Positions 47,874 to 54,575 of a stretch of 54,575 bases of DNA are shown here, piece after piece. The notes under the pieces were generated by a model that was not told where the DNA came from, made no database searches, and worked only from the letters and a program-made list of their open reading frames with translations. Source of the DNA: a virus; the IMG/VR virus record IMGVR_UViG_3300030116_004126, positions 1 through 54,575 of that record. One strand, written 5' to 3'. Made by a program: the position numbers and the translations under genes. The stretch's first letter is position 1. Every line of letters starts with the position of its first letter.

Positions 47874-48170
47874 TTATTTTTCAAAAGTTTTTACTACTTT
47901 AGGCCCTTTTGTAGCCTCTAATTTCTTAGTAAAGTGCTCGATACTGCCATCAATTGCTTTTTCTGCACCTTCCATAGTTTCTCTACGCGTTACATCTGCC
48001 CACTCGTCGTCAGCATCAGGTCTAGAAACTTCAGTTTGGTAGTAGCCGTTTGGTAATTGGGTAATTCGCCAGTTTGTTTTGTCAGCGAGGTGTTCCCATT
48101 GTTTCTTAGTTTTTTCGTTTACTTGTGGATTACCGGTCCACGAACTTGTTTTGTAATACAAATACGTCAT
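47874..48170 (-). CDS. Hypothetical protein, first gene of the minus-strand block
   Basis: A 98-residue protein, MTYLYYKTSSWTGNPQVNEKT, with WRITQLPNGYYQTEVSRPD and MEGAEKAIDGSIEHFTKKLEA. No recognised family or motif. As the gene next to the divergent control region it should be the first transcribed of the late block, 26 nt before groEL. Confidence 0.62.
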   Translation of the reverse strand: MTYLYYKTSSWTGNPQVNEKTKKQWEHLADKTNWRITQLPNGYYQTEVSRPDADDEWADVTRRETMEGAEKAIDGSIEHFTKKLEATKGPKVVKTFEK

Positions 48171-48379
48171 TTTAATTGGTTTTTAGGTTAATATTAGTTT
48201 TACATTGAATATAATCACATAAGGTGTAGGGTACTTAAAAAAAAGACATTATAAATATAGAAGTAAAGTGTAGCCCCCCACCTGTAGGCCAGCCCGCCCC
48301 CCTGCAAAAGCTCATTTTTTTTGCCCGGGCCGCCATTTACGTTTCGTTTTTGCAATTATTTTTCTGCAAACAGCAAACC
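48171..48379. other. Divergent intergenic control region with GC-rich C-tract island
   Basis: This 209-nt gap separates the minus-strand late block from the plus-strand early arm. Its left part is A/T-rich. From 48271 to 48335 it becomes GC-rich, unlike everything around it: two runs of six C (48274-48279 and 48297-48302) and the 8-bp palindrome GCCCGGGC (48323-48330), with T8 just before the palindrome. Then TTTTTGCAA and TTTTCTGCAAA repeat loosely up to the first promoter-like element. No ORF crosses it. It may hold late promoters, a replication origin or a packaging site; the sequence does not say which. Confidence 0.6.
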
Positions 48380-48405
48380 AAATACGACTAACGTTAGATA
48401 ATATA
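48380..48405 (+). promoter_or_regulatory. Early-arm promoter-like element, copy 1
   Basis: AAATACG, nine variable bases, AGATAATATA. Ends 38 nt before the ATG of the 40-residue gene. First of eight copies, all on the plus strand; it lies at the start of the early arm, next to the GC-rich island. Confidence 0.75.
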
Positions 48406-48443
48406 ATCGAATATAAAATAAAAACTTTTAACTTTTTCTAATT

Positions 48444-48566
48444 ATGCGAACAGAAATTCTAGCAACTATCGACGACTTAAACCAATACTTAAACGGATAC
48501 GTAACAGACGAAGGCCTTGCCGATACTCTAAAAGAATTATTACGTAAATTAAAAACTACAAACTAA
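48444..48566 (+). CDS. Tiny helical hypothetical protein
   Basis: A 40-residue protein, MRTEILATIDDLNQYLNGYV followed by TDEGLADTLKELLRKLKTTN: two amphipathic helices, no known family. It lies between copies 1 and 2 of the promoter-like element; the stop codon TAA overlaps the beginning of copy 2. Being alone between two such elements supports its being a real gene. Confidence 0.6.
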   Translation: MRTEILATIDDLNQYLNGYVTDEGLADTLKELLRKLKTTN

Positions 48567-48590
48567 ATACGACTAACAATAGATAATATA
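48565..48590 (+). promoter_or_regulatory. Early-arm promoter-like element, copy 2
   Basis: AAATACG-N9-AGATAATATA, starting within the TAA of the 40-residue gene and ending 45 nt before the ATG at 48636. Confidence 0.75.
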
Positions 48591-48635
48591 ACTGAATATA
48601 AAATAAATTATTAAACTAAATTAAATTAAATTATT

Positions 48636-48863
48636 ATGACTAAATTAACTAAAAAAAGATTTGTTATTTCAAAATCTCTAATCGGCAAAAATGTTATCAT
48701 TACATTTACTAACAAGAAAAATGAGACTTACTCATATAATCACGATGATATTTACTCAGTACATCAAGAAAAACTTGAGTCAATGGAGTGTTTCCAGAAA
48801 TATGGTAATTACACTAACTCAAATGTTATACCAAAATGGTGTCGTGACTTACAAGTAAAGTAA
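48636..48863 (+). CDS. Hypothetical early protein whose stop codon lies in a ribozyme stem
   Basis: A 75-residue basic protein: MTKLTKKRFVISKSLIGKN, VIITFTNKKNETYSYNHDD, then ESMECFQKYGNYT. Preceded by repeated TTAAATTAAATTA leader typical of Bacteroidota starts. No known family; the VIITFTNKKNETYSYNHDDIY segment looks like a small SH3-like beta domain. Its TAA (48861-48863) is inside stem I of the hammerhead ribozyme, so self-cleavage would trim its mRNA 44 nt after the stop. Confidence 0.66.
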   Translation: MTKLTKKRFVISKSLIGKNVIITFTNKKNETYSYNHDDIYSVHQEKLESMECFQKYGNYTNSNVIPKWCRDLQVK

Positions 48864-48913
48864 TACTGACGAGACTTTAATAGTCGAAACGCATAGGAAC
48901 GTGCGTCTATTAC
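48860..48913 (+). ncRNA. Hammerhead self-cleaving ribozyme (type I topology)
   Basis: All core elements are present in order. Stem I is GTAATA (48860-48865) paired perfectly with TATTAC (48908-48913). CTGACGA (48866-48872) is the CUGANGA box. Stem II is GACT-TTAAT-AGTC (48873-48885), closed by the required G-C. GAAA follows at 48886-48889. Stem III is ACGCA (48889-48893) with TGCGT (48902-48906) around the loop TAGGAACG, ending with C48907 as the cleavage-site base (UGCGUC, an NUH triplet GUC). Both ends lie in stem I, i.e. type I. Cleavage is predicted between 48907 and 48908. The 5' strand of stem I includes the stop codon of the preceding gene. Confidence 0.92.
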
Positions 48914-48916
48914 AAA

Positions 48917-48966
48917 ACAGTGACAAATGCCTGTTACTATACTTAACCTTAATAGGCTAATGTCAC
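48917..48966 (+). ncRNA. Predicted folded RNA segment directly after the ribozyme
   Basis: GTGACA (48920-48925) pairs with TGTCAC (48961-48966); inside, GCCT (48929-48932) pairs with AGGC (48954-48957) across a small AAT/TAA internal loop. An alternative hairpin AACAG/CTGTT (48916-48934) competes. The hairpin loop contains the palindrome TTAACCTTAA-like sequence. No ORF covers it. It would be the 5' end of the ribozyme's 3' product, upstream of the 36-residue gene. Role unknown. Confidence 0.5.
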
Positions 48967-48981
48967 ACTAAACAAAATTAT

Positions 48982-49092
48982 ATGTTACTATACATTTTAG
49001 AAATTATTACATTACTTACAGTTATTGGTACAATTTGTTACTTAACAGAAAAATTTATTATAGAAAGTGAGAGTGAGGCCAATGACTCTTGA
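48982..49092 (+). CDS. Tiny single-span membrane protein
   Basis: A 36-residue product: MLLYILEIITLLTVIGTICYL is one hydrophobic helix, followed by a charged tail TEKFIIESESEANDS. Too short for family recognition. It lies downstream of the ribozyme and shares no promoter-like element of its own, so its mRNA may be released by ribozyme cleavage. Possibly an early protein acting on the host inner membrane. Confidence 0.5.
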   Translation: MLLYILEIITLLTVIGTICYLTEKFIIESESEANDS

Positions 49093-49138
49093 TAATTACT
49101 AATACATAAACAAATTACCTACTTTTAAACTACAAACT

Positions 49139-49164
49139 AAATACGTTACTCGTTAGATAATATA
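49139..49164 (+). promoter_or_regulatory. Early-arm promoter-like element, copy 3
   Basis: AAATACG-N9-AGATAATATA with a diverged spacer (TTACTCGTT). Ends 31 nt before the preferred ATG at 49196. Confidence 0.75.
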
Positions 49165-49195
49165 AATGAAATTAAACTTTAAAAAATATACAATT

Positions 49196-49453
49196 ATGAC
49201 TTATACTAGATTACACCGAGAATTACTTAAACAACAGTTAATGAACTATGATTACTCAAATACACCTGAAGACAAATCAATACTTGTTGAGTTAGATTAC
49301 TTACATGTTACAGTGTCAACTGAAGGTAAAAATGGTTTTACTCACTACAAATCTTCAAGTAGTTCTATTGAAAAATTAGTAGAGTTAATGAATAAAAGAG
49401 TTACTCAGAATCCTGACTTTGATTTAATAATAGTTGATAAAGTTACAAACTAA
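49196..49453 (+). CDS. Hypothetical early protein
   Basis: An 85-residue protein, MTYTRLHRELLKQQLMNYD, with ILVELDYLHVTVSTEGKNG and a final DFDLIIVDKVTN. An in-frame ATG exists at 49166, but I choose 49196: the leader ACTTTAAAAAATA before it is the same as that before the next gene (49521), whereas 49166 falls 1 nt after the promoter-like element. No family recognised. Confidence 0.66.
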   Translation: MTYTRLHRELLKQQLMNYDYSNTPEDKSILVELDYLHVTVSTEGKNGFTHYKSSSSSIEKLVELMNKRVTQNPDFDLIIVDKVTN

Positions 49454-49477
49454 ATACGACTATATATAGATAATATA
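49452..49477 (+). promoter_or_regulatory. Early-arm promoter-like element, copy 4
   Basis: AAATACG-N9-AGATAATATA, beginning inside the TAA of the previous gene, 43 nt before the ATG at 49521. Confidence 0.75.
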
Positions 49478-49520
49478 AACGTAAATAAAATAATAATAAA
49501 CTTTAAAAAATAATTAAATT

Positions 49521-49766
49521 ATGTCTTATCAAAAATCTCAAATTCAAATTCTAAAATTAAATAACAAAACTTATTTACCATTTCAACTACATCAGTTGCC
49601 AAAATACTTTAATACATCAACAACTGACTATTTTAATCACAAAGGCTATTGCTATATATCACTAAACGATATACTCGATAATAATCCATACTTTAATCTT
49701 CAAACATTTAAAGATAATTTAACTTTCGATAAAAATATGCCGATGCAATATACTTCAGCTAAATAA
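49521..49766 (+). CDS. Hypothetical early protein
   Basis: An 81-residue protein starting MSYQKSQIQILKLNNKTYLPF, rich in Tyr/Asn/Phe, with a YFNHKGYCYISLNDILDNNPYF stretch. No motif or family recognised. Preceded by an A/T-only leader and promoter-like copy 4; ends 6 nt before the next small gene. Confidence 0.65.
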   Translation: MSYQKSQIQILKLNNKTYLPFQLHQLPKYFNTSTTDYFNHKGYCYISLNDILDNNPYFNLQTFKDNLTFDKNMPMQYTSAK

Positions 49767-49772
49767 TATAAA

Positions 49773-49916
49773 ATGAAAGTATACATCAATAACATCAAAT
49801 CAACTTGGAAAATCTATAAACAAGGTAGATGGCCTAAAAGAAGCATGAATATATACAAATACATGCTATTGTATACTGTAAAGTATGTTAAGTGTAAGTT
49901 AACATATACAAAATAA
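49773..49916 (+). CDS. Tiny basic hypothetical protein
   Basis: A 47-residue basic protein, MKVYINNIKSTWKIYKQGRW then PKRSMNIYKYMLLYTVKYVK. Lysine/tyrosine-rich with one weakly hydrophobic stretch. It follows the preceding gene by 6 nt, and its stop runs into promoter-like copy 5. Probably real because the arm leaves no other unused space; family unknown. Confidence 0.5.
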   Translation: MKVYINNIKSTWKIYKQGRWPKRSMNIYKYMLLYTVKYVKCKLTYTK

Positions 49917-49940
49917 ATACGATTACTAATAGATAATATA
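49915..49940 (+). promoter_or_regulatory. Early-arm promoter-like element, copy 5
   Basis: AAATACG-N9-AGATAATATA, only 9 nt before the ATG at 49950, so if it is a promoter the message is nearly leaderless. Confidence 0.75.
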
Positions 49941-49949
49941 ATAAAAGTT

Positions 49950-50165
49950 ATGAATAAAACATTACAAAAATACAAGATACATTACTGGTATGCTAAGCGA
50001 TATGGCGATATAGATATTATGTTAACATACTATAATAAAATAGAAGACTTGTTAGCACAAGAAATATACGGTGAATTTGGCTATGATACTTGTAGCCCAA
50101 GTGAAAAGCGATGGGTATCAGTAAAAGCACAAGAATTATTACTAAAAAATGAAAATTACAATTAA
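49950..50165 (+). CDS. Hypothetical early protein
   Basis: A 71-residue protein, MNKTLQKYKIHYWYAKRYGD, with IEDLLAQEIYGEFGYDTCSPSEKRWVSVKAQ: helical, Tyr-rich. No recognised family. It overlaps the start of the next small gene by 17 nt, indicating translational coupling. Confidence 0.65.
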   Translation: MNKTLQKYKIHYWYAKRYGDIDIMLTYYNKIEDLLAQEIYGEFGYDTCSPSEKRWVSVKAQELLLKNENYN

Positions 50166-50939: not shown

Positions 50940-51025
50940 TGATAGACGGAATACCAGAAATAATAGTCATAATAATATGCATACTTTTCGTATGGAGAAT
51001 AAGAGTTTGGTTTGATGAAGACTAA
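50939..51025 (+). CDS. Tiny single-span membrane peptide
   Basis: A 28-residue peptide: MIDGIPEIIVIIICILFVWR is a single membrane helix, then IRVWFDED. It overlaps the preceding stop by one base (TAATG), suggesting co-translation with the exported protein. Small size limits confidence. Confidence 0.42.
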   Translation: MIDGIPEIIVIIICILFVWRIRVWFDED

Positions 51026-51034
51026 TTACAAATC

Positions 51035-51060
51035 AAATACGACAAGTGTCAGATAATATA
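51035..51060 (+). promoter_or_regulatory. Early-arm promoter-like element, copy 6
   Basis: AAATACG-N9-AGATAATATA, 26 nt before the ATG of the zinc-ribbon gene at 51087. Confidence 0.75.
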
Positions 51061-51086
51061 TATGACAAAAGCTAATTAAATAAAAT

Positions 51087-52602: not shown

Positions 52603-52672
52603 AGAAGTTGACAAAAGGGTGCTAATAGCAGAGGCTAAAGGCGCTAAAGTGTATGCTACGTTTTACAAATAA
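52529..52672 (+). CDS. Tiny basic hypothetical protein (overlapping ORF)
   Basis: A 47-residue basic protein, MTKKRKLNSKNPKYKTKAEV, then DKRVLIAEAKGAKVYATFYK, whose end looks like a real small domain. Overlaps the preceding ORF by 74 nt in a different frame. It ends 8 nt before promoter-like copy 7. Confidence 0.45.
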   Translation: MTKKRKLNSKNPKYKTKAEVKATTKEVDKRVLIAEAKGAKVYATFYK

Positions 52673-52680
52673 TACAAACC

Positions 52681-52709
52681 AAATACGAACACTAACAGAT
52701 AATAATATA
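52681..52709 (+). promoter_or_regulatory. Early-arm promoter-like element, copy 7 (variant)
   Basis: AAATACG-N9-AGATAATAATATA: the second box carries three extra bases. Ends 20 nt before the ATG at 52730. Confidence 0.7.
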
Positions 52710-54038: not shown

Positions 54039-54387
54039 AGCACAAATTAGATTTGCTACACGTGAAGAAGGAGTATCGTTTAGCGAACACCCAAATGTTA
54101 TACACGCACAGTTCTACTGTCATCACGACGGTTATCCAGAAGGATTAGGTGTAGAAATAGCAGAGTGTTTTACTAGGTATGGTAAAATATATAGTTGGGA
54201 AATAGAAAATCTAAATAACAAACACGGCGATCTTGATTACATATATTATGTATGGCAACATCCAGAAAAATCTACATGGATAAGTATATTTGAAGTTGGC
54301 TATGATGAAGATGATAAATGTATATTTGTAGGCAAACCGAGTAATCTTATAGATAAATACAAACCAAATACGAACACTGATGGATAA
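54028..54387 (+). CDS. Conserved hypothetical protein (STRAQIRF type)
   Basis: A 119-residue protein starting MSTRAQIRFATREEGVSFSE, then AQFYCHHDGYPEGLGVEIAE and YIYYVWQHPEKSTWISIFEV. This 'STRA.I.......Q.Y.H.DGYP.GLG' pattern is a conserved unknown in phages and bacteria, as I recall. An upstream in-frame ATG at 53986 would overlap the previous gene by 53 nt, so the ATG at 54028 is preferred. Promoter-like copy 8 begins inside its 3' end. Confidence 0.7.
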   Translation: MSTRAQIRFATREEGVSFSEHPNVIHAQFYCHHDGYPEGLGVEIAECFTRYGKIYSWEIENLNNKHGDLDYIYYVWQHPEKSTWISIFEVGYDEDDKCIFVGKPSNLIDKYKPNTNTDG

Positions 54388-54391
54388 TATA
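54366..54391 (+). promoter_or_regulatory. Early-arm promoter-like element, copy 8
   Basis: AAATACG-N9-GGATAATATA (first base of the second box is G), lying inside the 3' coding end of the preceding gene and only 3 nt before the next ATG. Confidence 0.72.
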
Positions 54392-54394
54392 GTT

Positions 54395-54575
54395 ATGACA
54401 GAACAACAATTAAATCAACTAGTAGATAAACTAGCAGGCGCTATGATTAAACGTATCTACGGTTACGAACAAAATGATGCTAGAGATAGAATGTCTTATT
54501 ATGCTGACGACTTAAACGATCACGCGGTTGGCGAGTTAGCTAGGCTAATGACACTAATGAACTTATATGAAGATC
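54395..54575 (+). CDS. Hypothetical early protein, 3' end outside window
   Basis: Sixty residues are visible: MTEQQLNQLVDKLAGAMIKR, IYGYEQNDARDRMSYYADDL, ending in a helical LARLMTLMNLYED at the window edge. No family recognised. It follows promoter-like copy 8 by 3 nt. Confidence 0.58.
   Translation, partial: MTEQQLNQLVDKLAGAMIKRIYGYEQNDARDRMSYYADDLNDHAVGELARLMTLMNLYED

Follow-up and report, generated by a model that had tools for sequence, protein, structure and literature searches.

The function of hammerhead ribozymes in phages has been an open question since 2010-2011. In prophages, clusters of hammerheads flank single genes or short blocks of genes, and it has been suggested that they divide long phage RNAs into mRNAs of one gene each (Perreault et al. 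2011, PMC3088659). Such tandem prophage hammerheads cleave in vitro, and the Agrobacterium set does so in E. coli as well (PMC3088659). In the haloviruses HF1 and HF2 the hammerhead HHphage lies shortly upstream of an early phage gene, and a transcript 5′ end has been reported in connection with its cleavage site (PMC3088659). What prokaryotic hammerheads do is still described as an open question (PMC6155905).

The ribozyme studied here is of this known class and stands in a known kind of place. It was found in the window, the whole stretch of 54,575 nucleotides that was analysed, which is part of a virus record of 59,564 bases. Compared by the text of the paper, the prophage clusters likewise have hammerheads beside single phage genes, together with a proposal of mRNA processing. 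They differ in having several copies per genome, whereas this virus record has only one, and our cases were taken from virus contigs and phage isolates, with arrays of up to nine. HHphage is also found shortly upstream of an early phage gene, but it has a variant architecture tied to salt dependence, is located 13 bases before a helicase gene and has no reported stop-codon overlap. The earlier note had regarded the placement of our ribozyme as undescribed. This was not upheld for its position next to a single gene, which is known from prophage hammerheads (PMC3088659). The text of that paper makes no mention of stop codons or of an overlap with them. Systematic stop-codon fusion was likewise not described in the literature searched, which covered few subscription papers or preprints, and it may not have been described before. 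The parts that may be new are therefore the subtype consensus, the regular use of the same bases by ribozyme and stop codon, the long arrays and the cultured hosts.

The terminase of the virus is nearest to those of Bacteroidetes phages (63% for an uncultured podovirus, 45% for the Flavobacterium Elemovirus and 36-39% for Cellulophaga phages), and Tenacibaculum phages are also among its relatives. Structural genes and groEL are read leftward up to 48170, and small genes are read rightward from 48444. The ribozyme is placed between two of the latter in the ORF list, a 75-codon gene (48636..48863, plus strand) and the gene of a membrane-like peptide, which indeed has 36 codons and lies downstream (48982..49092, plus strand), where it would be the first gene in the 3′ cleavage product. 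A similar frame follows the ribozyme in the related loci L015, L019, L020 and L022. No significant match to the 75-codon gene product was obtained in Pfam or PHROG, and no function could be assigned to the flanking proteins via Pfam or PHROGs. Among cultured phages we found neither DNA similarity to the whole locus nor relatives of the 75-aa protein. Upstream of the 75-codon gene lies a promoter-like direct repeat (48554..48595, plus strand, family D1), whose role as a promoter is putative, and the next copy (49128-49169) is located past the 36-codon gene. The repeat motif, ACAAAYYAAATACG-n-TAGATAATATAA, is found at 48369-48410, 48554-48595, 49128-49169 and 49441-49482, with further copies at 49904-49945, 51024-51065, 52671-52704 and 54355-54396. 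These repeats stand upstream of small rightward genes and, judged by sequence, probably represent a phage-specific or unusual early promoter.

Every base that had been assigned to a complete hammerhead is in place on the plus strand at 48860-48913, in this marine phage, and the topology is type I as claimed, with stem I open and stems II and III closed. Stem I has 6 bp (GTAATA 48860-48865 with TATTAC 48908-48913), and the TAA of the 75-codon ORF (48861-48863) lies within its 5′ strand, as the earlier note had stated. The catalytic core CUGACGA (CUGANGA, 48866..48872) corresponds to C3U4G5A6N7G8A9 and is followed by stem II of 4 bp (GACT/AGTC, 48873-48876 with 48882-48885), which encloses the five bases of loop II, TTAAT (UUAAU), within 48873..48885. 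G12A13A14 is found at 48886-48888. Stem III (ACGCAT/GTGCGT, 48889-48894 with 48901-48906) is closed by the pair A48889-U48906 (A15.1-U16.1), and the GUC cleavage triplet ends in the cleavage nucleotide C48907 (H17), which places the predicted cut at 48907/48908.

When the 551 bases around the element were searched with the Rfam model RF00163 (Hammerhead_1), the match covered exactly 48860-48913 with 25.9 bits and an E-value of 4.4e-4 (1.1e-5 in the whole virus record). This score is lower than the gathering score of 34, so that the hammerhead is not listed in a default Rfam scan. The check proposed in the earlier note was thus positive for a match on the exact element and negative for the threshold, which counts against the reading as a working ribozyme. 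Its relatives and the tandem phage hammerheads are likewise below this threshold, and the Rfam cut-off hides a large phage hammerhead subtype. The element agrees with RF00163 in its core, its three stems, the GUC triplet and an open stem I; it differs from it in a fixed 6-bp stem I, a UNAnU loop II and A/AA flanks outside the 45-position Rfam model. RAGATH-1 (RF03152) gave a weak match at the same place (23.7 bits), far under its cut-off of 56.3 bits. In contrast to these scores, a phage-specific covariance model (R1), trained on 22 hammerheads from other phage contigs and including neither the window hammerhead nor any locus of the 75-aa family, scored the element at 61.8 bits (E 1e-12). A strict descriptor (stem I of at least 6, stem II of at least 4 and stem III of at least 5 bp) occurs once per 1599 Mb of first-order random sequence of the window's composition, or about 7e-5 times per window. 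According to the Rfam, pattern and R1 scans it is the sole complete hammerhead in the 59,564-base record. One-mismatch pattern matches were considered as a second hammerhead in the window and rejected: they lie mostly on the strand opposite to the early genes, and the stems are formed by none of them. In thermodynamic folding that ignores tertiary contacts, the occupancy of the full fold was modest to low, with competing structures that draw on the coding region. It was about 5% or less once the folded stretch reached about 100 bases, which also counts against a working ribozyme.

Viral contigs were scanned with the pattern CTGANGAGAN9TCGAAAC, which gave at least 120 stretches. Among the matches listed, 112 unique sites with flanks were chosen only by the core and two stem II pairs. 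Stems I and III could be formed at 85 of these 112 sites, compared to a mean of 6.2 (maximum 11) when downstream flanks were swapped between sites, a test that is independent of selection for pairing in these stems. The remaining 27 sites had no downstream partner; these are partly chance matches and perhaps partly type II or III hammerheads. For instance, the cores in L132, L146 and L098 lack a downstream GUC strand and adjoin a Shine-Dalgarno-like sequence, and are possibly type II or III hammerheads of other phages. At least 152 distinct hammerheads of one subtype were collected from viral contigs, representing dozens of other phages. Stem I has 6 bp in 137 of them. Stem II and its loop span 13 bases in nearly all, a length fixed by the scan pattern for its own sites, with which further copies from the same contigs agree. 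Within the 137 hammerheads, the position directly 5′ of stem I (-7) is A in 98% and the first stem I base is G in 95%, while the two positions directly 3′ of stem I are A in 89% and 75%; the A and AA were never selected for. Loop II has the consensus U-N-A-n-U. The window hammerhead has all these features: A48859, a 6-bp G..C stem I starting at G48860, the UNAnU loop and AA at 48914..48915. Fast natural hammerheads require a contact between loop II and stem I (PMC6155905). The conserved unpaired A, AA and UNAnU would fit such a tertiary contact, and A48859 and the AA at 48914-48915 are likely partners of loop II.

Other phages of the subtype have two to nine hammerheads each. The longest array has nine in 4.3 kb (contig G049), most of which overlap or abut the stop of the preceding gene. 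Stem I is identical in 43% of pairs within contigs versus 4% between contigs, a difference to which the way of finding the contigs contributed. For stem II there is no greater likeness within contigs, but the search pattern raises its similarity between them. In several contigs, stem I and the leader are common to different genes.

A relative of the 75-aa protein is encoded at 45 loci in viral contigs (56-79% identity), and a hammerhead is present at the stop of the same gene in 13 of them, all with strong R1 matches. Weaker, decayed matches to R1 were absent from the related records at E<=0.01; a candidate 1 kb downstream in L005 reached only 16.5 bits and was not counted as secure. In an alignment of 12 of these hammerheads (10 distinct), stem I and the core apart from N7 were invariant, 99.4% of cells were paired and five pairs, two in stem II and three in stem III, showed compensatory changes on both sides. 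A separate set chosen by a pairing descriptor (A1) had two-sided changes in all three stems, but its pair counts are descriptive; the fair tests are the orthologous set (A2) and the flank swap. The comparative sequence evidence strongly supports the identification as a hammerhead. The ribozyme was absent at the gene in the other 32 loci, which counts against our reading and indicates that it is dispensable. At these loci, the stop is accompanied instead by a promoter-like motif or a small hairpin.

Cultured phages also gave R1 matches: Flavobacterium phages of Elemovirus A, B, C and D, Cellulophaga phage phi18:3 and Pelagibacter phage HTVC131P have a single copy each. R1 scans of Cellulophaga phage Calle_2 and Tenacibaculum phage Gundel_1 gave no match, and Streptomyces phage R4 was rejected as a candidate as neither the locus nor the whole record contains a complete type I hammerhead. 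In Elemovirus A, an unannotated forward ORF of 21 codons ends at the ribozyme with its TAG at -8. The Elemovirus hammerhead is overlain by the reverse-strand GenBank CDS gp68 (L180:2962-3069; NC_055852.1 17275-17382). This annotation is probably spurious, showing that the element is liable to be annotated as a protein gene. With Elemovirus (Flavobacterium sp. BAL314) and phi18:3 (Cellulophaga baltica), isolates are available in which the role of the element can be tested in infected cells.

Stop codons are placed regularly around the ribozymes. With C3 of CUGA as the reference, 75 of 152 hammerheads had the stop of their best upstream ORF (at least 60 codons) at -9..+1, compared to 170 of 2649 CTGA sites taken at random from these loci; the proportions are approximate because gene calls were simple ORFs. 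The favoured stops share bases with the ribozyme: TAG at -8 uses A-7 and G-6, TAA or TGA at -9 ends in A-7, TGA at +1 belongs to the CUGA core, and TAA or TGA at +11 to the UNA of loop II. Past the cut, the first start codon (ORF of at least 40 codons) follows at a median distance of 27 bases, mostly 20-35. The order of stop codon, ribozyme, about 27 bases and start codon offers a concrete and testable role in the making of mRNA ends. As a tentative and rather doubtful generalization, stop-codon-fused hammerheads could be a modular cut-and-stop device of phages, in which conserved bases would give a stop in every frame (A-7/G-6 for UAG or UAA/UGA, the CUGA core for UGA, loop II for UAA/UGA), each early gene would be released as its own mRNA with a 5′ leader shared inside one phage, and cleavage would be timed by the terminating ribosome.

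From the motif, its conservation and covariation and its regular placement between stops and starts, we infer cleavage, a tertiary contact and effects on mRNA. We consider it likely that the element works as a type I hammerhead, belongs to a phage-specific subtype (UNAnU loop, A/AA flanks, stems I and II of 6 and 4 bp) and self-cuts the transcript of the 75-codon and 36-codon genes at C48907/U48908 into defined mRNA ends. The transcript would be cut while being made, and one cut would determine both where the first mRNA ends and where the second begins. Hammerhead chemistry leaves a 2′,3′-cyclic phosphate on the upstream product and a 5′-OH on the downstream product. The upstream mRNA is thus predicted to end 44 bases past its stop, in stem-loops II and III, and the mRNA of the peptide would start with a 5′-OH and a 74-base leader containing a conserved hairpin. 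Of the predicted functions, cutting of the message directly after its stop is the best supported.

It is a real possibility, although we lean against it, that the ribozyme mainly makes a 3′ end by trimming read-through transcripts behind the stop, with the downstream product being incidental. Terminator-like sites were absent from 48170-50000, in line with a region that lacks intrinsic terminators. Moreover, a promoter-like motif and not a direct cistron follows the ribozyme in L010 and L043, so that separating two cistrons cannot be its only use; what all cases would have in common is a 3′ end fixed behind the stop, with the 5′ end being fixed only where a cistron follows. An incidental downstream product is however difficult to reconcile with the close spacing of the next start in most cases, and with L015, L019, L020 and L022, where the peptide gene starts 27 bases past the cut with no promoter-like motif between. 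A ribosome that terminates at the TAA would occupy stem I and the core, and cleavage and translation termination would therefore exclude each other in time. The element could then be a translation-sensitive switch, with terminating ribosomes blocking stem I and only untranslated or cleared messages being cut, deciding between decay and stability. This would agree with half of the 152 hammerheads having the stop within or next to stem I or the core, and with the structures competing with stem I that the coding region supplies. We nevertheless think it rather unlikely, as close relatives with almost the same ribozyme have the stop at -9, -8 or -5. These several offsets mean that a precise position of the stop in stem I is not required, and for the turn-taking of ribosome and ribozyme they speak for compact packing over regulation by a tuned distance.

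The shared stem I and leader within contigs, with stem II showing no such excess, would also be expected if the ribozymes were boundaries of gene cassettes, short repeats at which small early genes recombine and for which cleavage is secondary. Recombination alone does not demand covariation in stems II and III or a kept catalytic core, and we hold this to be quite unlikely. That the hammerhead is decayed or due to chance, and inactive, is very improbable: the score under the Rfam threshold and the AU-rich stem I would fit, but they are opposed by the low number expected per window, the invariant core and compensatory stem changes of the orthologues and the high score with the independent model R1. 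A self-cutting hammerhead that processes the message behind the stop remains our preferred reading.

The leader of the predicted downstream product carries a conserved hairpin or palindrome, GTGACA..TGTCAC with inner GCCTGTTA/TAATAGGC (48919..48970, plus strand). It occurs in relatives both with and without a hammerhead, and it is a separate module since the leaders of some relatives consist of 27 bases without it. The near-palindrome GTGACA-NNA-GCCTgTTAcTa..TTAATAGGC-TNA-TGTCAC was found at 48919-48970, at L002:7852-7895 and at about 40 places in L004-L047, often twice per phage, and could act as a hairpin in RNA or, in DNA, as the binding site of a dimeric protein.

Other small elements were observed at stops in the related loci. 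In four loci without the ribozyme (L005:5198-5225, L018:5215-5235, L009:3070-3095 and L034:5205-5230) the stop lies inside a small hairpin, which shows a compensatory change between L005 (CACAGT/ACTGTG) and L018 (CACACT/AGTGTG) and competes with the GTGACA hairpin. A small tRNA-like element abuts stops at L014:6482, L018:6700, L021:6313, L026:6331, L036:6587 and L041:5745. It has an acceptor-like stem and a perfect T-arm (GGTGGTTCGATTCCACC) but no anticodon arm, and was not called by ARAGORN or Rfam when L014, L018 and L036 were scanned. A pseudoknot-like element, AGTCCAGTTAGTT-N-CTGGTAAATCAAATATGAA-N, is located just past stops at L003:3872, L007:3803, L010:6693 and L013:6358, and also at L023:5211, L032:6443, L037:6382 and L044:5211. 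It gave no Rfam match at the gathering score; its outer helix covaries (CCAG/CTGG, and CCTG/CAGG in L044) and its second helix is variable. In L060 and L116, the leader is nearly identical at several genes of the phage. At several junctions of L060 and L116, a second GTCTAA lies a few bases further on, and its pairing with the stem I strand TTAGAC that cleavage sets free could give the new mRNA a 5′-terminal hairpin.
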